This document shows, one piece after another, positions 1 through 18,216 of a stretch of 22,499 nt of DNA. Numbering within the stretch: position 1 is the stretch's first letter; each line of letters opens with the position of its first letter. The notes beneath the pieces are model-generated. The model searched no databases and was not told the origin of the DNA. It was given only the letters and a program-made list of their open reading frames with translations. The DNA is taken from the IMG/VR virus record IMGVR_UViG_3300025131_007988, positions 1-22,499 of that record. One strand, given 5' to 3'. The translations under genes were made by a program, and so were the position numbers. This stretch comes from a virus.

Positions 1-321
1 TTCACAATACGAGTTGCGGCAAGACGTGTTGGTCTTATAAGCGAACAAAAAGCCTGGGAATTTAGAAATGTAATAAACAACTTTAGCGGCAATTTAACAT
101 TAGTAGGTGCTAATGTTGAACATACATTTCAGCATCAGGCCTCAGTAACTAATGATGATTTAGGTGGAGCTTCCACCGGAACAGATGCTTGGGATGTAGG
201 AATAACTGCATATTCAGCAACTAATGTTTTACGAATAACAATAACTGGCGAAGCAAACAAACGTATAAATTGGTCAATTGCAGTAGATTACGTTCAAATA
301 CCGTCGGACGTCACATTATAA
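1..321 (+). CDS. C-terminal part of a phage virion (tail or fibre-type) protein
   Basis: Frame 1 is open from the first base to a TAA at 319-321, giving about 106 residues with no start in the window, so the gene is truncated by the window edge. The protein is rich in Asn, Thr, Ala and Val, has alternating hydrophobic residues typical of beta-structure, and ends with a segment around ITITGEANKRINWSIAVDYV. This resembles the beta-rich C-termini of virion proteins in marine T4-like phages, but I cannot name the protein. Its stop codon lies inside the first of two TATAAATA late-promoter boxes. The coding frame is well supported; the structural role is inferred from composition and context. Confidence 0.6.
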   Translation, partial: FTIRVAARRVGLISEQKAWEFRNVINNFSGNLTLVGANVEHTFQHQASVTNDDLGGASTGTDAWDVGITAYSATNVLRITITGEANKRINWSIAVDYVQIPSDVTL

Positions 322-343
322 ATACTATTTTATAAATACTATT
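317..343 (+). promoter_or_regulatory. Tandem T4-type late promoters upstream of tmRNA
   Basis: TATAAATA occurs at 317-324 and again at 331-338 as part of a 13-base direct repeat (TATAAATACTATT at 317-329 and 331-343). This octamer is the known late-promoter element of T4-like phages, recognised by the gp55-type sigma factor. Initiation about six bases after the second box would fall near 344, where the predicted acceptor piece of the tmRNA begins. Promoter activity is inferred from the motif and its position. Confidence 0.65.
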
Positions 344-414
344 GTTGTTTAAGACTCTATGTTGAAAGCGACTGGACATGGGTGCGATTCCCATCACCTC
401 CACCAAAGGATTAT

Positions 415-498
415 ATGGATAAAGTATTAACATGGTTTTTTACTCTGACAATATTAGGAATGGGTATAGCATGGTTTTATCTTAATTATAACATGTAA
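415..498 (+). CDS. Membrane micro-ORF in the tmRNA intervening segment
   Basis: A 27-codon ORF (MDKVLTWFFTLTILG..., ending in FYLNYNM) fills most of the 102-base segment between the CCA end of the tmRNA acceptor piece (405) and the start of the coding piece (508). AAAGGA at 405-410 is a plausible ribosome-binding site four bases before the ATG, and its first base is the terminal A of the CCA. The peptide is one hydrophobic segment with aromatic residues, so it would be a small membrane protein. This segment is normally excised from two-piece tmRNA and is not known to code. Expression is unproven; a chance ORF is possible. Confidence 0.45.
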   Translation: MDKVLTWFFTLTILGMGIAWFYLNYNM

Positions 499-567
499 TT
501 CTTTGATGGGGGTGAAATAGATTTCGACACCGTGGGAAGCAAAGACGAGACGACATTAAACTTAATC

Positions 568-615
568 GCAAATAATAACGATTATACATCTGCACAGGTT
601 ATGCTTGCCGCATAG
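568..615 (+). other. tmRNA proteolysis-tag reading frame
   Basis: From the resume codon GCA at 568 the frame encodes ANNNDYTSAQVMLAA, followed by TAG at 613-615. With the alanine carried by the tmRNA, the full tag is AANNNDYTSAQVMLAA. The Ala-Asn-rich start and the Leu-Ala-Ala end are typical of SsrA tags. The LAA end is the signal bound by ClpX, and a ClpX is encoded about 5.6 kb downstream in this window. Confidence 0.88.
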
Positions 616-708
616 TCAGTAGCCGAGTTAGAGGATTGTCCTCCGGGGGATCACTTGGGAACAGAAGAATCCCTCCATTACACACAGACACACATAAAGG
701 AGAAAATT

Positions 709-1799: not shown

Positions 1800-2447
1800 A
1801 TGAGTATTAAAACTTTAATACTAAGTGCCTTATCTTGTATCTTTTTTACAACAACTGCAACAGCAATTAAAATTGTTGTTAACAGTGATACCGGGAAACA
1901 TAATTATCCCTCAATAAGTGATGTAAAGAAACGCATTCAAAAACATACAGAACCTAAATACAGAAATACATTTATGGTTTTTTCTAGCAGTGAACTCAAG
2001 TGTCTTGCTATGAACATTTACCACGAAGCTCGAAACGAAAGTTTATCTGGAAAAATCGGTGTTATGTTGGTTACCATGAATAGAGTTGCAGATGAAAGAT
2101 TTCCTGGATCTATTTGTCAAGTGGTACACCAAGGTAAACACTATTACCACAAAACTCTTAAAAAGAAACTTCCTAGTAAAGATCGATGCCAGTTTAGTTG
2201 GTATTGTGATGGCTTGTCTGATATACCAAAAAATAGAAAGGCATGGGTTTATTCACAAGCCTTGGCAGAATATTTTCTAAAAAGATCCATGTTGTTTATT
2301 GACTTTACAGAAGGGGCAACCCATTACCATGCAAATTATATAGATTTACCCAGATGGGCAAAAAATAAAAAATTTATAAAAACGGTAAGAATCGATACTC
2401 ATTTATTTTATAGATGGGAAAATGGCAGTCTGGTAGCATTGAAATAA
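1800..2447 (+). CDS. Exported SleB-family cell-wall hydrolase (putative endolysin)
   Basis: The product is 215 residues. Residues 1-22 form a signal peptide (Lys, then a hydrophobic stretch, ending TATA). Residues about 65-213 match the Hydrolase_2/SleB family: the core has LAMNIYHEARNES with the likely catalytic Glu76, the VTMNRV segment, and the QFSWYCDG block at 131-138. Family members cleave peptidoglycan. The signal peptide suggests Sec-dependent export to the periplasm rather than release only through a holin pore. The ATG at 1800 follows a GGAGA site; an ATG four bases upstream stops after four codons. Enzyme class is confident; the lysis role is inferred from phage context. Confidence 0.85.
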   Translation: MSIKTLILSALSCIFFTTTATAIKIVVNSDTGKHNYPSISDVKKRIQKHTEPKYRNTFMVFSSSELKCLAMNIYHEARNESLSGKIGVMLVTMNRVADERFPGSICQVVHQGKHYYHKTLKKKLPSKDRCQFSWYCDGLSDIPKNRKAWVYSQALAEYFLKRSMLFIDFTEGATHYHANYIDLPRWAKNKKFIKTVRIDTHLFYRWENGSLVALK

Positions 2448-4685: not shown

Positions 4686-6164
4686 ATGATATTTGCTCTC
4701 TTCGTTTTATTCACCGCACTTTGTATTTCAGCAACAGCCGCGTATTATTCTATCGTAGGCTTAATGGCCATCTTCAGTGGCGCAATGGTTTCTATTGCAG
4801 TAATGGGTACAGTATTAGAAGTTGGTAAACTTGTTACAGCAAGTTGGCTCTACCAATTTTGGCCTAGAATTCCTAAATTAATAAGATCATACCTTACAAT
4901 ATCTGTTGTTATATTAATGCTCATAACTTCCATGGGTATTTTTGGTTACCTCTCAAAAGCACACCTACAACAAAATGCAATGTCTGAAGAAGAGGTTGCA
5001 CAAATCGAAGTATATGCAGAAAAATTAACAAGATCAAATGCAAAAATACAACGATGGAATGACGACATTGGCCGGCTTAATAGAGGTGAAAATGTTCGGG
5101 TAGACCTTCTTATTAAGAACGAACAAGAACAATTAAACATTATATACGATAGAATTAAAGACAAAAAAGCACAATTAAAAGTAATAGCCGATGAACAAAT
5201 TGCGGTACAAGAAAGTAAATTAACAGAATATGCAGAACGTACTAAAAATGATTTGGCTTTATTACAAGAACGACCAGATGGTAAAGTTGACGAAGAAACA
5301 GGTAAAACAGAAAAAGAAATAGCAATAGACAAAGTACGTAAAAGAGATAGAGGCGTTTCGTGGGTTGCACGAGATAAAATGAGAAAAGTTAGTGAGCAAT
5401 TACGTAACGATTATGACAAAATAGATAAAGAGTATGCACCTCAGATAAAAACTGTTAACACACGAATACAAGAATTACGACAGCAAGCACAATTAAAAAC
5501 AGAAGATATTGATACAAAAATTATACAACTTGAAGGATTTATAGAATCAGAACAAACTGTTGCAGATAATGCAAGGGTTACGAAATTACAACATGAAAGC
5601 AAGTATAGAGAAATAGAAGTTGATGTTGGGCCTGTAAAATATATTGCTGATATGATTTACGGCGATGATGCTAGAACAATGCTCGACTCTGCTGTTAGAG
5701 CTGTTATAATAACACTTATATTTGTTTTTGATCCACTAGCCGTATTACTTGTTGTTGCAGGTAATATGACTATAGTTTGGGCAAGAGGACGAAAAGGATA
5801 TATGTTAGTTCCTGTTAAATCCGAGGAAGAAGAAGATCTAGGATTAGAAACAGAATTATCTGTTCCTGAACCCGATAATATTTATGATACAACATTGCCT
5901 ACATCCGAAATAGATAATGACAATGATATAGAAGAAACTGAAGAAGAAACTCTTGAGCAGAAAATGCTTGAAAAAATAAAAATTAAAGAAAATGTTGAGC
6001 CCCAAGAAGATATTGGGCCTGAAAAAGACATTAATGAAATAAAAGAAGTATTAGAAAAAGCAGATGAAAGAACGTTAAAAGAAGTATACAATGAAATGGT
6101 TAGTACTAATAAGAGGAAAACTGGGTTACGAGGACTTCAAGCCTGGTTAGGCTCTTCAAAATAG
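4686..6164 (+). CDS. Large membrane protein with long coiled coil
   Basis: The product is 492 residues. Three hydrophobic segments occur in the first ~92 residues, a long charged helical region rich in Glu, Lys and Gln (about 98-310) looks like a coiled coil, a further hydrophobic segment lies at about 333-362, and the tail from about 375 is very acidic. This layout recalls DUF4407-type membrane proteins, but I cannot confirm membership. It follows the virion gene by four bases. It could be an envelope-anchored scaffold or an injected protein; no enzyme motif is visible. Confidence 0.7.
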   Translation: MIFALFVLFTALCISATAAYYSIVGLMAIFSGAMVSIAVMGTVLEVGKLVTASWLYQFWPRIPKLIRSYLTISVVILMLITSMGIFGYLSKAHLQQNAMSEEEVAQIEVYAEKLTRSNAKIQRWNDDIGRLNRGENVRVDLLIKNEQEQLNIIYDRIKDKKAQLKVIADEQIAVQESKLTEYAERTKNDLALLQERPDGKVDEETGKTEKEIAIDKVRKRDRGVSWVARDKMRKVSEQLRNDYDKIDKEYAPQIKTVNTRIQELRQQAQLKTEDIDTKIIQLEGFIESEQTVADNARVTKLQHESKYREIEVDVGPVKYIADMIYGDDARTMLDSAVRAVIITLIFVFDPLAVLLVVAGNMTIVWARGRKGYMLVPVKSEEEEDLGLETELSVPEPDNIYDTTLPTSEIDNDNDIEETEEETLEQKMLEKIKIKENVEPQEDIGPEKDINEIKEVLEKADERTLKEVYNEMVSTNKRKTGLRGLQAWLGSSK

Positions 6165-6177
6165 TAATGTAATCTAT

Positions 6178-7422
6178 ATGAATGAACTTCAAATTATGAA
6201 TTGCCATTTTTGTGGTAAACACAAAGACGAAGTATCAAAACTTATCCAAGGCGAACATGCATACATTTGTGATAGATGCATTCATCTTTGTTATGAAATA
6301 ATACAAGAAGAAGCCGCAAAAATTGATAACTATGAAATATTCACACCTAGAGAAATCTATAATCACTTAGAACAATATGTTATTGGACAAGAAGCCGCAA
6401 AAAAAGTTCTGAGTGTCGCTGTTTATAACCACTATAAACGATTAAATGCCCATATCAATGATATTGAAATTGACAAAAGTAATGTATTATTTTTGGGTCC
6501 GAGTGGATCTGGAAAAACATTATTAGCCAAATCTATAGCAAAATTATTAGATGTACCGTTTGCCATTGCAGATGCAACAACTGTAACTGAATCAGGATAT
6601 GTTGGTGACGATGTAGAAAATGTTATTACTAGATTATTAATATCTGCTGATGGAAATATAGACAGAGCAGAAATGGGTATTATATATATTGATGAAATAG
6701 ATAAAAAAAGTAGAAAAACAGAATCTGCAAGTATCACTCGTGACGTGTCAGGTGAAGGTGTCCAACAAGCACTACTTAAAATGATAGAAGGATATGAATG
6801 CAAAATTCCTCCTCAAGGGGGACGTAAACATCCAAGCCAAGATCTTGTTTCTGTAGATACTACTAATATTTTGTTTATTCTTGGCGGAGCATTTATAGGT
6901 TTGGATAAAATAATCAAAAAACGCCTTAAGAAAGGATCTTCTATTGGGTTTGGTGCTAATTTATCTGATGATAAAAAACCTGAAAATTTACTACAATTTG
7001 TAGAACCAGAAGATCTTGTTATATATGGATTAATACCTGAATTTGTAGGTAGAATACCAATTATATCACATTTAGAAGAATTAACAAAAGGCGACCTTGT
7101 TAATATTTTATTAGATGTAGATAATTCATTAGTAAAGCAATATCAACGATTATTTAAAATGGATGATATTGGCTTAGAAATTACCGGAGATGCATGTCAA
7201 GAAATAGCTAAAAAATGTATTAATAAAAAAGTAGGAGCAAGAGGACTTAATTCTGCAATAGAAGAATTATTACTAGAACTACAATTTATACTACCCGAGC
7301 TTAGAGAAGAAGGTGTAGAAAAAATTGTTATAAATGAAAAATGTGTTTCAGAAAACACAAAACCAATATTTGTCTTTAAAGGAGAAAAAATTAATGAGAA
7401 ACCAACATCCACGGAAATATAA
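6178..7422 (+). CDS. clpX: ClpX, unfoldase of the ClpXP protease
   Basis: ClpX unfolds tagged proteins with ATP and feeds them to ClpP. The 414-residue product (E. coli ClpX is 424) is full length: zinc-binding domain with Cys9, Cys12, Cys31, Cys34; Walker A GPSGSGKT (107-114); pore-1 loop GYVG (140-143); Walker B IIYIDEID (168-175); RKH loop Arg216-Lys217-His218; arginine finger Arg292 in EFVGRIP; sensor-2 GAR (353-355). The ClpP-docking loop tripeptide IGF is present at 256-258, so docking to a host ClpP is expected. The RKH and pore loops that bind SsrA tags are intact, and a tmRNA with an LAA tag is encoded at 343-690. Its 3' end overlaps infC by 29 bases. No clear ribosome-binding site is seen; the ATG at 6196 is an alternative. 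Confidence 0.96.
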
Positions 7423-7942
7423 TAAAAGAAATAATCATAATTTTAAAGTTAATAATGATATACGAATGCGAGAAATACGTCTTATAGATGCCGACGGCGC
7501 TCAATTAGGCATAAAAGACCCAAGAGATGCTGTCGAAATAGCAAAGGAAAAAAATCTCGATCTTGTTATGATTTCAGAACAGGCAAATCCGCCTGTTTGT
7601 AAAATAGTGGATCTTAATAAATACATATACGCAGAAAAAAAGAAACAAAAAGAAAAAGATAAGAAAGCCCGTGAATCTAGAATTGAAATCAAAGAAATTC
7701 AGTTGCGGCCAGTAACACAAAAACACGATTTAGAAACCAAAGCCAAACAAATTCAAAAATTTATAGATAAAGGCAATAACGTAAAAGTAGTAATACGGTT
7801 TAAAGGTCGTGAACAAGGGCATATAAAAGCGGGATTTGAAATTTTTAAAGAAGTAGAAGAATTATTAGAAGGAGTAGAGTACCTTACAGAACCGCAAAGA
7901 ACCGGTCCAAGAATTATCGGTATAATGAAAAAAAATAACTAA
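7394..7942 (+). CDS. infC: Translation initiation factor IF-3
   Basis: IF-3 binds the 30S subunit, keeps it apart from 50S and checks start-codon pairing. The 182-residue product has both IF-3 domains: the N-domain with NNDIRMREIRLIDADGAQLG and ANPPVCKIVDLNKYIYAEKK, a long basic linker helix, and the C-domain with EIQLRPVTQKHDLETKAKQI, VKVVIRFKGREQGH and PRIIGIM. I chose the ATG at 7394 because GGAG at 7381-7384 fits; an upstream in-frame codon lies deeper in clpX. The stop shares bases with the bS21 start (TAATG at 7940-7944). The basic N-terminus ([15 protein letters not shown]) is an extra. A phage-borne infC next to rpsU suggests alteration of 30S initiation. Confidence 0.96.
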   Translation: MRNQHPRKYNKRNNHNFKVNNDIRMREIRLIDADGAQLGIKDPRDAVEIAKEKNLDLVMISEQANPPVCKIVDLNKYIYAEKKKQKEKDKKARESRIEIKEIQLRPVTQKHDLETKAKQIQKFIDKGNNVKVVIRFKGREQGHIKAGFEIFKEVEELLEGVEYLTEPQRTGPRIIGIMKKNN

Positions 7943-8193
7943 TGACGCACAAAAAAGTAAGAATTTCTGTTGAAGTTCAACGTGGCAATGTGGAGAAAGC
8001 ACTTAGAATTTTAAAGAAAAAAGTTAATGCCGAAGGTATAATACGTGATTTGAAAAAAAGACAATATTACGAAAAACCATCTGACAAGCGCCGAAGACGG
8101 CGGGCCCAATGTATTTCTCGTATTGAGAAACGAGACGAAAAATTATATGAACAATGGCTAGAATTAGCTAGCCGATATGGAAAAGTAAAATAA
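7942..8193 (+). CDS. rpsU: Ribosomal protein bS21
   Basis: bS21 sits on the 30S platform near the anti-Shine-Dalgarno end of 16S rRNA. The 83-residue product matches the family: KVRISVEVQRGNVEKALRIL, then RDLKKRQYYEKPSDKRRRRR, then a basic C-terminal helix. The family core is about 60-70 residues, so this copy has a C-terminal extension (KLYEQWLELASRYGKVK). It is coupled to infC by TAATG. bS21 is a known phage-borne ribosomal protein, thought to replace or supplement the host copy and favour phage messages. The transcript appears to end before the promoter at 8208. Confidence 0.94.
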   Translation: MTHKKVRISVEVQRGNVEKALRILKKKVNAEGIIRDLKKRQYYEKPSDKRRRRRAQCISRIEKRDEKLYEQWLELASRYGKVK

Positions 8194-8207
8194 AGAATCA
8201 AAAAAAC

Positions 8208-8236
8208 TTGACATTTTTATTATAACATAGTATAAT
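8208..8236 (+). promoter_or_regulatory. Consensus sigma70-type promoter for hsp20
   Basis: TTGACA (8208-8213) and TATAAT (8231-8236) are both perfect, with a 17-base spacer. The predicted start is near 8243, leaving a leader of about 70 bases before the hsp20 ATG at 8314. This is a host-type promoter and should work without phage factors. Confidence 0.85.
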
Positions 8237-8255
8237 AGTGATAAATATTATGAGA

Positions 8256-8307
8256 GGATTAATGCCTATGGTAGGGTTAATTCGACTCAGTCTTGCTTAT
8301 AAAGGAG
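8256..8307 (+). promoter_or_regulatory. Structured hsp20 leader, possible RNA thermometer
   Basis: GGATTAA (8256-8262) pairs with TTAATTC (8277-8283), and inside it CCTA (8265-8268) pairs with TAGG (8272-8275) around a three-base loop. Downstream, TCTT (8291-8294) can pair with bases of the ribosome-binding site AAAGGAG (8301-8307), and TTGCT nearby resembles the anti-SD element of ROSE thermometers. Thermal control is a guess from the hairpin and the Hsp20 gene. Confidence 0.35.
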
Positions 8308-8313
8308 AATATT

Positions 8314-8772
8314 ATGACTAGACACCTCACAACCGGAAATCTTAGCGATTTCATCACTTCACTTACACCGTTTACAGTTGGAATGGACAGAATGTTTAGA
8401 GACTTAGAGCAGTTCTCTAATTCATATACTGCATCATCTACAGGGTATCCACCCTATAACATCGAGCAAGTCGATGACGGTAAATGGGTAATTTCAATGG
8501 CCATTGCTGGCTTCGGTGAAGACGATATAGAAGTTTCACAAAAAGAACGTAATCTTACAGTTAAAGGTAAGATTGAAAGTAAAACTAATGAGGACGAAGA
8601 TCACTTTGTCCACCATGGTATTGCTAATCGTTCTTTTGACAGAACTTTTCGCTTAGGTCCACATGTGCTTGTTAAGGATGCAATTCTTAAAAATGGCATG
8701 TTGGCTATAGATTTGGAACAAGACATACCTGAGGAAGAAAAACCTAAGGTAATTCCTATCACGGTTAATTAA
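8314..8772 (+). CDS. hsp20: Small heat-shock protein Hsp20/IbpA family
   Basis: Hsp20 proteins hold unfolding proteins as oligomers. The 152-residue product has the alpha-crystallin domain: PPYNIEQVDDGKWVISMAIAG at its start, FGEDDIEVSQKERNLTVKGK in the middle, then NRSFDRTFRLGPHVLVKDA and LKNGMLAIDLEQDIPEEEKP (the G-x-L motif and the end of the domain). I prefer the ATG at 8314 over one at 8293 because AAAGGAG at 8301-8307 fits it. hsp20 is a common gene of marine T4-like phages, where a role in virion assembly has been proposed. It has its own consensus promoter and a terminator hairpin. Confidence 0.93.
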   Translation: MTRHLTTGNLSDFITSLTPFTVGMDRMFRDLEQFSNSYTASSTGYPPYNIEQVDDGKWVISMAIAGFGEDDIEVSQKERNLTVKGKIESKTNEDEDHFVHHGIANRSFDRTFRLGPHVLVKDAILKNGMLAIDLEQDIPEEEKPKVIPITVN

Positions 8773-8781
8773 GCAACATAT

Positions 8782-8810
8782 AATGCGGTGTGGGCAATCT
8801 GCACCGCATT
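8782..8810 (+). terminator. Hairpin terminator after hsp20
   Basis: AATGCGGTG (8782-8790) and CACCGCATT (8802-8810) form a perfect 9-bp stem with an 11-base loop, ten bases after the hsp20 stop. It is followed by CTATAAATATTTT, a weak T-rich tail that also contains the late-promoter box of clpS. Confidence 0.65.
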
Positions 8811-8811
8811 C

Positions 8812-8819
8812 TATAAATA
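8812..8819 (+). promoter_or_regulatory. Putative late promoter for clpS (TATAAATA)
   Basis: An exact TATAAATA between the hsp20 terminator and the clpS ATG at 8827. Initiation about six to eight bases downstream would fall at or next to the start codon, predicting a leaderless or nearly leaderless message; no ribosome-binding site is present. Confidence 0.5.
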
Positions 8820-8826
8820 TTTTAGT

Positions 8827-9141
8827 ATGGCAGAGATAGAAACAACAACAAAAGAAAATATTGATACGACGGTTGACGTTAATGTGAAAGAACCTGACAA
8901 GTATAAGGTACTTTTAATTAACGATGATTTTACTCCTATGGATTTTGTTATCTATATATTAGTAACAATATTTCATCATTCAAATGAAGCCGCCGAAGAA
9001 ATTATGGTCCAGGTCCATGAAAAAGGTAAAGGAATTGCAGGAGTATATACATACGAAATAGCTGAACAAAAAGCTGTTGAATCCACAACACAAGCCAGAC
9101 AAAATGGCCACCCCTTAAATGTTGAAATCGAAGAAGTCTGA
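8827..9141 (+). CDS. clpS: ClpS, N-degron adaptor protein
   Basis: ClpS captures proteins with destabilising N-terminal residues (Leu, Phe, Tyr, Trp) and hands them to ClpA-ClpP. The 104-residue product has the core: YKVLLINDDFTPMDFVI (26-42), VQVHEKGKGIAGVYTYEIAE (61-80) and HPLNVEIEE at the end. The residues of the E. coli binding pocket are all present at matching positions: Asn32, Asp33, Asp34, Thr36, Met38, Val63 and His64. The ~23-residue N-terminal tail is Thr-rich and acidic; in the family this tail acts on ClpA. No clpA is visible here. I chose the ATG at 8827; an upstream in-frame GTG at 8788 would run through the terminator hairpin. Confidence 0.93.
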   Translation: MAEIETTTKENIDTTVDVNVKEPDKYKVLLINDDFTPMDFVIYILVTIFHHSNEAAEEIMVQVHEKGKGIAGVYTYEIAEQKAVESTTQARQNGHPLNVEIEEV

Positions 9142-16174: not shown

Positions 16175-16417
16175 ATGAGTGAAACAATAGTATACACCCA
16201 CGTGAAAGTCCCTGACTGCGAATGGTGCGATAAGGCAAAAGAATTACTGAAGGGCCGCGGCATAGTCTACGAAGAAAAAGAAGTTGGGACCGATCTGACC
16301 CCTAGAGAGTTATACCAGAAAATAGGTGGTTATCGAAATTTCCCCCAAATTATTCTAAACGGCGAACATGTCGGCGATTATAAAGGACTAACAGATAAAT
16401 TAGTCGAAACTGTTTAG
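16175..16417 (+). CDS. Glutaredoxin
   Basis: Glutaredoxins reduce disulfides with glutathione, and some carry Fe-S clusters. The 80-residue product has the dithiol active site Cys15-Glu-Trp-Cys18, the cis-proline NFPQI (Pro57), and the glutathione-binding GDYKGL (67-72) in place of the usual GGxxDL. The length fits a single-domain glutaredoxin. It could supply electrons to ribonucleotide reductase in phage DNA synthesis, the commonest phage role, or serve the Fe-S genes at 12123 and 12888. Base composition is a little more GC-rich than neighbouring genes. Confidence 0.92.
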   Translation: MSETIVYTHVKVPDCEWCDKAKELLKGRGIVYEEKEVGTDLTPRELYQKIGGYRNFPQIILNGEHVGDYKGLTDKLVETV

Positions 16418-16428
16418 GAGGTAAATGT

Positions 16429-16887
16429 TTGAAAGCACTATTACGATGGTGGCTTATTTTTTGTATGTCGATTCTTGCAGGAGGAGTGGCAGTATATTTT
16501 GATTTACACATAGACTTATATGAAGGTGATCAAACTAAAATAAGTTTTCTTATATTATCTGTTTTTATTTTTACATCAGCCTGGATAGGATGGTGTACAA
16601 GCAAATCTGAATATCAATATCAAAATATCGCCACAGGATGGTTTATTTCTGAAACGTGCCTAGCTTTGGGTATGATTGGAACTGTGACCGGTTTCTTATT
16701 AATGCTCAACGGAGCCTTTGCAGACATAGACTTAGCAAATACAGCAACAATTCAAACAGCCCTATCTAAAATGGCATTGGGTATGAGTACTGCATTATAT
16801 ACAACACTAGTTGGCTTAATTTGTTCTCTAACATTAAAAATTCAACTAGTTAATGTAGAAAACGAGAACCAAGCCAATGGACAGTAA
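16429..16887 (+). CDS. MotA/TolQ/ExbB-like proton-channel protein
   Basis: The 152-residue product has hydrophobic segments at about 5-24, 38-56, 73-95 and 122-140. The segment ETCLALGMIGTVTGFLLMLN then ALSKMALGMSTALYTTLVGL is the MotA/TolQ/ExbB signature: a TM helix with GxxGTVxG, then an AL-xxMAxGxxTAL helix. TTG at 16429 is the start, since AGGAGG at 16416-16421 fits it with seven bases; the ATG at 16425 is out of frame and too close to that site. Its partner is the MotB/TolR-like gene that overlaps its end by 11 bases. Confidence 0.8.
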   Translation: MKALLRWWLIFCMSILAGGVAVYFDLHIDLYEGDQTKISFLILSVFIFTSAWIGWCTSKSEYQYQNIATGWFISETCLALGMIGTVTGFLLMLNGAFADIDLANTATIQTALSKMALGMSTALYTTLVGLICSLTLKIQLVNVENENQANGQ

Positions 16888-17743
16888 ATCTCAATATAAA
16901 AGTAGTTTAGCATTTACCGACTTGCTGTTTAACGTACTAATCGGCTTTGCATTCATGTTCATAGTTGCATTTATTTTGATTAACCCCGTTGAAAAAGATG
17001 CAGAAATTGAAGCAAAAGCCGAGTTTATGATTATAATGGAATGGGATGACCAATCCGCTTATGACATAGACTTATGGATGTCTGATCCTGTTGGTAACAT
17101 AGTTGGTTTCCCTAACATGCATGCCGGCTTATTACATTTAGATAAAGACGATCTAGGCATATCTAATGATACAGTAATATTAGCAGATGGTACAACAAAA
17201 ATAATTTATTTAAATCGAGAAGTAATGACAATTAGAGGTATTATTCCTGGAGAATATATTGTTAATAATCATTTATATTCTATGAAAGCCGATGCTAAAA
17301 AAGGAGGGCCAATTGAAGTCACAACAAAAGTAATAAAACTTAATCCATACGGCGAAGTACATACTGGTGTTGTTACCTTGCCTCTTCGAGGTAGCGAAGA
17401 AACAGTTATAAGGTTTACGGTTAATCCTGAAGGGTTTGTAACATCAAAGAATCATCGAAAAAAAAGATTCGCAGGAAAACTACAGCAAGGAGGCACAATG
17501 ACTTCTTCCGCCGGTAGTACCCCTATGCAACCACCCCCCACAGGCGAGGGCGAACAAATACAAGGTGATGAACCAGCCGATGACGACGAAGTTCATGGAT
17601 CAGCAGGATTCGATTATGAGTTACATGAACAAATTGGAACGTCCCTTGTTGGAGAAAGAGAAGATGTTAATCGTTATGATAATCCACCAGGCAATGATAA
17701 CCTTGGACCTGCTGGTAGGTACGAAGATGAATTTAGGAGATAA
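16877..17743 (+). CDS. MotB/TolR/ExbD-like membrane protein with periplasmic domain
   Basis: The 288-residue product has one N-terminal TM helix, SLAFTDLLFNVLIGFAFMFI, with Asp15 at the place of the proton-carrying Asp of MotB/ExbD/TolR. A periplasmic domain (about 38-190) opens with FMIIMEWDDQSAYDIDLWMS, recalling DUF2135/YfaP-like beta-domains (DlDLhvxdP). The C-terminal 90 residues are disordered and rich in Pro, Gly, Asp and Glu. It lacks a peptidoglycan-binding OmpA-like domain. Together with the MotA-like protein it could form an ion-driven motor or energy-transducing complex in the inner membrane. Confidence 0.72.
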   Translation: MDSKSQYKSSLAFTDLLFNVLIGFAFMFIVAFILINPVEKDAEIEAKAEFMIIMEWDDQSAYDIDLWMSDPVGNIVGFPNMHAGLLHLDKDDLGISNDTVILADGTTKIIYLNREVMTIRGIIPGEYIVNNHLYSMKADAKKGGPIEVTTKVIKLNPYGEVHTGVVTLPLRGSEETVIRFTVNPEGFVTSKNHRKKRFAGKLQQGGTMTSSAGSTPMQPPPTGEGEQIQGDEPADDDEVHGSAGFDYELHEQIGTSLVGEREDVNRYDNPPGNDNLGPAGRYEDEFRR

Positions 17744-17748
17744 GGATA

Positions 17749-18216
17749 ATGGTAACGTTTAGTTTTTTAGTAGTAGCATGGATAGTATTACTTGCTATAT
17801 TTTTATGGGATTTAATACAACATGGTGTAGATAAAATATGGATGTTTATTGTTATTCCTGCTACTCTTGCCCTTACTGTAACAACTTATGTTACAGTACA
17901 AAGTATGTTAGGATATCCAACAGATAAGGTAAAAGAAGGAAAATTTCAAGTTATTTCGTCAGCAGTTAAGGAACCCGATTGGATATTTTACTGGGTTGCC
18001 TATCAAGATGATGAAGAACCTATTGCATATAGATTTCCATATTCAGAATCTGATCATGATAAACAAGAAGAAATGTCCGGACGACAACAAGCCGGAGAAA
18101 TTATCCAAGGCGAGCTTGTAGACGAAGGCGACGACACCAATAGTAAAAGTATTTTAGGTCAAATTGAATTTTACACATTTGATGTTTCCAAAGCAATCCC
18201 AAAATCAGCAGATTAA
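17749..18216 (+). CDS. Third membrane protein of the MotAB-like operon
   Basis: The 155-residue product has two TM helices (about 3-22 and 30-52) and a soluble domain after residue 55, including EPDWIFYWVAYQDDEEPIAY, then a charged linker and YTFDVSKAIPKSAD. The gene follows the TolR-like gene by five bases, with AAGGA before the start, so the three genes probably form one transcript and one complex. I do not recognise the family. The location suggests an accessory subunit of the channel complex. Confidence 0.65.
   Translation: MVTFSFLVVAWIVLLAIFLWDLIQHGVDKIWMFIVIPATLALTVTTYVTVQSMLGYPTDKVKEGKFQVISSAVKEPDWIFYWVAYQDDEEPIAYRFPYSESDHDKQEEMSGRQQAGEIIQGELVDEGDDTNSKSILGQIEFYTFDVSKAIPKSAD

Follow-up and report, generated by a model that had tools for sequence, protein, structure and literature searches.

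The A-B-C locus

The window, the whole 22,499-nucleotide stretch analysed here (IMG/VR virus record IMGVR_UViG_3300025131_007988), carries three adjacent, co-directional and near-overlapping genes, A, B and C, at exact coordinates 16429–18216. The first-pass annotation had described them as a MotA/TolQ- and MotB/TolR-like pair with a third membrane protein. This description was borne out by a PF01618 match of A, a transmembrane (TM) aspartate in B and the structural model of C.

Gene A (16429..16887, + strand) codes for an inner-membrane protein of 152 amino acids, assigned to the MotA/TolQ/ExbB family by a PF01618 match, a PDB profile search, residue conservation and protein lengths. The TTG start at 16429 is backed by a Shine-Dalgarno-like AGGAGGT (16417..16423, + strand), read directly in the sequence 5 nt upstream. 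Hydropathy indicated four TM helices. The protein matched Pfam PF01618 (MotA_ExbB) with 33.0 bits, above the cut-off of 22.9, and six of six diverse A proteins matched this family at E<1. A profile built from 45 relatives of A retrieved 11 sequences at E<1 from the whole PDB, all MotA, PomA, ExbB or TolQ (best E 0.005), and placed the motif ALYTTLVG (ALyTTlvG in the family) on ALITTLYG of MotA. A is a member of the MotA/ExbB family.

The pore motifs of A are G81-M-I-G84-T85-V-T-G88 and A122-L-Y-T125-T126-L-V-G129. The GMIGTVTG helix had been read as an ion-channel signature, and its GxxGTxxG positions G81, G84, T85 and G88, together with T126, are 97–100% conserved. The pore residue Thr126 is invariant in 136 of 136 A proteins; Asp34, Gly81, Gly84, Thr126 and Gly129 do not vary among 66–67 distinct viral proteins. 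Phage A proteins have a median length of 156 amino acids versus 236–254 in cellular ones. In examples compared by eye, the cytoplasmic loop between TM2 and TM3 of cellular A is for the most part absent from phage A.

Gene B (16877..17743, + strand) overlaps A by 11 nt and encodes a MotB/ExbD-type partner of 288 amino acids, according to alignments, AlphaFold and Foldseek. The AlphaFold model with 48 relatives comprises one TM helix (9–35), a periplasmic beta-sandwich (50–192; pLDDT mostly >90) and a disordered C-terminal tail (202–288; pLDDT after residue 201 mostly <50). The TM helix bears Asp15 (codon at 16919..16921, + strand), by alignment and homology the putative ion-carrying residue. 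The first reading of the sequence had singled it out, and it is invariant in 66 of 66 distinct viral B proteins. The TM aspartate is also kept in 68 of 73 B proteins from alphaproteobacterial and other cells or metagenome-assembled genomes (MAGs) and in 17 of 20 from Gammaproteobacteria. Alanine or valine replaces it in eight cellular proteins (L127, L143, L145, L146, L147, L196, L201 and L203), which makes the standard mechanism impossible for some cellular copies; the viral copies all keep it. An acidic residue is located a few positions earlier in B of L127, L143, L145–L147, L196, L201 and L203. The gammaproteobacterial loci L196 and L201, whose B is without the TM aspartate, have two C genes each.

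Within the periplasmic domain of B, Trp56, Asp63, Asp65, Asp91, Asp92, Glu115 and Arg120 are invariant in 66–67 distinct viral proteins, and Gly94 is likewise invariant. The acidic invariant loop (DxD ... LDRDDLG..ND) resembles an edge for ligand or metal binding. Among solved folds, Foldseek placed 2qng first (E 1e-4), followed by DUF4425. A kinship with TerD is suggested by the motif shape and 2qng; TerD was absent from the five genomes searched, so these offered no sequence for comparison with B. The domain has no VWA match and its model is all-beta. The initial proposal for B held in part: the tail is disordered and neither Pfam nor the model revealed an OmpA-like peptidoglycan-binding domain, but the DUF2135-like assignment (PF09906) was rejected, with one of 48 B proteins matching at E=0.08.

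Gene C (17749..18216, + strand) encodes an accessory protein of 155 amino acids, defined by its AlphaFold model and by a homologous third gene in phages and cells. The model (pLDDT 86.5) shows a TM hairpin (2–54) and a small alpha/beta domain (65–143); no proline-rich spacer was seen in it. Across 128 sequences, the loop between the TM helices has a net charge of +1.9. By the positive-inside rule, this loop is probably cytoplasmic, which would place the alpha/beta domain in the periplasm. C had no significant match among PDB sequences and folds, and neither B nor C belongs to a family in Pfam, PHROGs, PADLOC or NCBIfam.

The trio in viruses

A tblastn search with B found 27 Rhizobium and Sinorhizobium phage records, in which the matching proteins carry no assigned function. 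As a single-sequence query, A had no match in the named phages; only B was similar enough. An A-type gene precedes B and a C-type gene follows it in five of five phages inspected (N3_19, I1_18, the temperate phage 16-3, P10VF and TM3_3_14B). A scan of IMG/VR with a B alignment yielded 135 relatives, of which 80 were kept. With the window, its own copy and the five named phages added, the set comprises 87 viral loci.

All 87 loci contain A and B, and 86 contain C, in the same order and on the same strand; the exception stops at a contig edge. The proposed neighbourhood survey thus recovered the complete trio in 86 of 87 viral loci. Spacing was within −60 to 30 nt, counting overlaps and gaps, for A-B in 80 of 85 and for B-C in 75 of 85 cases. 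Because only B was used to fetch the loci, finding A and C there is independent evidence, and their presence beside B in essentially every locus shows that the trio is not a chance arrangement. C is an obligate partner of A and B. This obligate third gene and the wide distribution of the trio in phages and cells go beyond the first-pass annotation.

The carriers of the trio are real phages. Among 15 long viral records, a Gp23-type capsid was present in 8 and a terminase in 8. That the window itself is from a phage had been proposed and is confirmed by its virus record and by genes for tail-fibre/baseplate proteins, an endolysin, a gp31-like protein and a DNA-polymerase fragment. A permuted tmRNA of alphaproteobacterial type lies at 312–676 (+ strand; RF04321 80 bits, RF01849 57 bits), and its type hints at an alphaproteobacterial host.

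The trio in cells and its exchange with phages

A scan of genome contigs gave 13 loci, all with A-B-C. Plainly chromosomal copies are located on a 6.97-Mb Desulfobacterales chromosome and in marine Alphaproteobacteria, where the trio adjoins the suf operon. Among sampled species genomes, in counts that include seeds and related species, B was present in 55 of 385 Alphaproteobacteria (four seeds; sampled as the class of a marine alphaproteobacterium) and in 40 of 369 Gammaproteobacteria (one seed; sampled as the class of a Legionellales bin), a share of about 11–14%. Beyond the seed, none was found in the 395 Desulfobacterota-type, 380 CPR-type and 296 Bacteroidota-type genomes sampled. The order A-B-C holds in 66 of 73 cellular or MAG loci. 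Azospirillum chromids have two B copies each.

Marine-phage profiles of A, B and C are homologous to those of the alphaproteobacterial clade II (hhalign 99.5, 99.9 and 99.1%). A tree of A and B displays one large marine-phage radiation, the group of phage 16-3 next to a clade from Alphaproteobacteria, and other Rhizobium phages in a deep group of their own. Ten changes between virus and cell labels are needed on this tree, at least seven of them forced by well-supported branches; the tree gives no direction of transfer, and a few rows labelled as cells are probably phage contigs in bins. On this phylogenetic basis, phages and cells appear to have exchanged the trio more than once. The MAG contigs L087, L088, L093 and L094 were rejected as cellular, since they nest inside the phage radiation and have phage-like neighbours; they are probably phage contigs in bins.

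Neighbouring genes

Neighbouring genes were grouped into families across 64 viral and 86 cellular loci. Flanking genes were called mechanically, and several of them were identified by visual inspection. Many of the co-occurrences stem from related genomes, so they are not independent observations. There is no universal neighbour, and the flanks vary by lineage. In cells of both classes, a lipoprotein gene (DUF3108-like, just below its cut-off) directly follows C on the same strand at 14 loci. Gammaproteobacteria have a VWA-TM-FHA protein at this position in seven loci, and DUF302 and YkuD L,D-transpeptidase genes upstream in six. Genes resembling mreC, mreD, PBP2 and RodA, named by eye, are near four alphaproteobacterial loci. 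PQQ-dehydrogenase-type genes are near 12 of 86 cellular loci, mostly from related genomes, and PQQ-alcohol-dehydrogenase/ABC genes (TIGR03863, TIGR03866 and TIGR03861) lie beside a few chromosomal copies, including L091 and L132. A function in a lanthanide/lut operon was considered and rejected as the general role; the neighbours at L091 and L132 fit a PQQ-alcohol-dehydrogenase/ABC system, a setting that most loci lack.

In the 64 phage loci, recurrent neighbours are ClpP (9), SbmA/BacA (8), ribonucleotide reductase (8), ClpS, Hsp20 and S21 (6 each), a trypsin-like protease (5) and a small lipoprotein directly after C (5). The thread common to these contexts is the envelope, and in phages also proteostasis.

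The SbmA/BacA genes code for peptide transporters (PF05992, with E about 1e-135 for both genes tested) and are the first or second gene after C in marine phages (L009, L010, L013, L017, L037, L064, L073 and L094). Trypsin-like protease genes lie near the cassette in phage lineages that are far apart (L003 4286–5185, L005 3111–3821, L017, L030 and L094); 16-3 and TM3_3_14B have one immediately before A.

Comparison with known systems

Ion-driven 5:2 motors power flagella, the Tol and Ton systems, gliding and Zorya. The trio shares with MotAB and PomAB an A protein with four TM helices and the ALxTTLxG motif in TM4, a B protein with one TM helix and its aspartate, and the position of the A gene before B. 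It differs in that phage A is nearly without the cytoplasmic TM2-TM3 torque domain, B is without the OmpA-like peptidoglycan-binding domain, C is extra, and flagellar genes are not nearby. All A matches to the flagellar MotA profile of NCBIfam were far below cut-off. With TolQR-TolA and ExbBD-TonB, the trio has in common the pore motifs and a pair that is driven by the proton-motive force (PMF) and works on the envelope together with a third membrane protein. However, A has four TM helices instead of three, and the periplasmic part of B is a beta-sandwich of about 140 residues, unlike the small ExbD/TolR fold. TolA and TonB are long rods, whereas C consists of a TM hairpin and a small domain. 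The TolQ and ExbB equivalog profiles scored 13–20 bits against A, with cut-offs of 206–403, and no TolA-, TonB- or Pal-like gene or tolB was recognised in the loci inspected.

Zorya also has a MotA/MotB-type pair tied to phage biology. ZorA profiles weakly match the pore of A (1.8e-6), and the 152 residues of A align only with the channel core of ZorA models of 461–683 residues. The profile search that had been proposed against MotA/ExbB and Zorya families thus gave a PF01618 score above cut-off, a weak ZorA match and, for B of the window, no ZorB match. ZorC, ZorD and ZorE were not among the recurrent neighbour families of the 64 viral and 86 cellular loci. The trio differs from Zorya further by the missing long cytoplasmic tail of A and peptidoglycan-binding domain of B, and by its obligate C (PMC11890865).

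In the parts available of a study on vWA force transducers, unnamed PMF motor operons combine TolQ-like motors with a vWA protein that bears the TM aspartate and replaces TolR (PMC12204202). These are likewise PMF motors with other periplasmic domains, and some gammaproteobacterial loci of the trio add a VWA protein after C. In contrast, the domain of B is a beta-sandwich, and only some lineages have the VWA-TM-FHA protein, as an additional fourth gene. The accessible text describes neither this trio nor a phage-encoded one. The generic ion transporters (GIT) of a MotAB stator study, as far as its text was available, are a broad non-flagellar MotA/ExbB clade with assorted appended domains, some without assigned function; no three-gene A-B-C group or phage-encoded pair is named there (PMC12505986). 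Our literature search, in which subscription journals were little covered, found no paper describing the A-B-C trio. The trio belongs to the PF01618 superfamily, lacks the defining features of flagellar MotAB, Tol/Ton and Zorya, and is nameless in the family libraries and papers searched.

Proposed function and alternatives

We propose that A-B-C is a distinct ion-driven, stator-type envelope complex that phages and cells exchanged and that is shortened in phages; we put the probability of this reading at roughly 0.55. A, B and C would form an inner-membrane complex driven by the ion-motive force and stand as a lineage of their own within the MotAB/ExbBD/TolQR/ZorAB superfamily. Homology suggests that two B TM helices are enclosed by five A subunits, and ion flow past Asp15 of B and the Thr125/Thr126 ring of A would move or turn B. 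The periplasmic beta-sandwich of B could hand this motion on to a partner in the envelope, and C would serve as a dedicated accessory that faces the periplasm. In bacteria, the complex may serve as a chromosomal envelope system, often with the lipoprotein or the VWA-TM-FHA protein as a fourth component. During infection, it may keep up, energise or remodel the host envelope in a Tol/Ton-like manner, rather than defend, lyse or move the cell. We infer the 5:2 stoichiometry, ion flow and motion from homology, and the envelope role and the use in infection from gene context only.

A defence function of the Zorya type, or superinfection exclusion, would have the complex sense or block the injection of a second phage and so protect the infected cell, the lysogen or the bacterium. 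ZorAB is a motor of the MotA/MotB superfamily used against phages, and the weak ZorA profile matches of A fit this reading. Zorya defence depends on the tail of ZorA and on the peptidoglycan-binding domain of ZorB (PMC11890865). Both parts are missing in the trio; B and C match no ZorB or other defence family except for one TM-helix match at 0.008, and no ZorC, ZorD or ZorE effector was recognised in the loci inspected. Exclusion functions are common in temperate phages, and the trio is present on temperate phages such as 16-3, but its chromosomal copies stand among envelope and housekeeping genes. We consider protection against other phages, one of the roles first suggested, possible but unlikely; the features specific to Zorya are absent.

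Rather more improbable is a Ton-like energiser of outer-membrane uptake of nutrients, metals or peptides via receptors, which phages would carry as an auxiliary nutrient-uptake module. The PQQ genes beside chromosomal copies, TonB-dependent receptors at L091 and L187 and the SbmA/BacA genes beside 8 of 64 phage copies fit such a role. However, the receptor and PQQ links are limited to some lineages, and the PQQ context, a single lineage-restricted setting absent from most loci, was for this reason retained only as a rival. The hairpin and small domain of C, with no proline-rich spacer seen, are also unlike TonB. CPR-type bacteria are generally without an outer membrane, and copies in three CPR-type bins (L097–L099) argue against a strictly outer-membrane target, yet only the seed genome had the trio among the 380 sampled. 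A device for lysis, entry or membrane depolarisation, the other role first suggested, found no support and is very improbable. An ion channel that has a domain in the periplasm might collapse the ion gradient or target the wall, but the cassette is not with lysis genes: the endolysin of the window (1800–2447) is about 14 kb away, and the phage neighbours are proteostasis, nucleotide and host-takeover genes. The same cassette is an ordinary chromosomal operon in bacteria, which is unfavourable for a killer channel, and the conserved stator motif is not a holin-like hydrophobic design.

The same trio in many unrelated phages and in about one tenth of the sampled Alpha- and Gammaproteobacteria chromosomes indicates a real, overlooked machine. 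It represents a strictly three-gene lineage of ion-driven motors, in which the B domain is distinctive and a third subunit is dedicated to the complex. A more far-reaching statement is offered tentatively, as one that may well not hold in full: many tailed phages, from about 60-kb temperate phages to a 527-kb jumbo contig, would encode a complete ion-driven motor, a further kind of envelope energiser, next to Tol and Ton, that has had no name so far. It would have passed between phages and proteobacterial hosts more than once, have been slimmed down and run the envelope of the host during infection. Should the viral copies work, the envelope of the infected cell is actively driven by a viral machine. 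Tractable models are Rhizobium phage 16-3 (p038, p040 and p042) and Azospirillum brasilense.

Further observations concern genes apart from the cassette. The window contains at 6178–9141 a host-like proteostasis and translation run, named by eye as ClpX-, IF3-, S21-, Hsp20- and ClpS-like; the ClpX-like gene matches PHROG protease/ATPase families. Upstream of this run, at 4686–6164, lies the gene of a 492-aa protein that has TM helices at its N terminus and a long middle part resembling a coiled coil; it has no Pfam or PHROG family. At L133 (7018–8254), two B genes follow one another in tandem, with neither A nor C. The second of them has an apparent signal peptide instead of the TM helix and apparently encodes the B domain as a free periplasmic protein.
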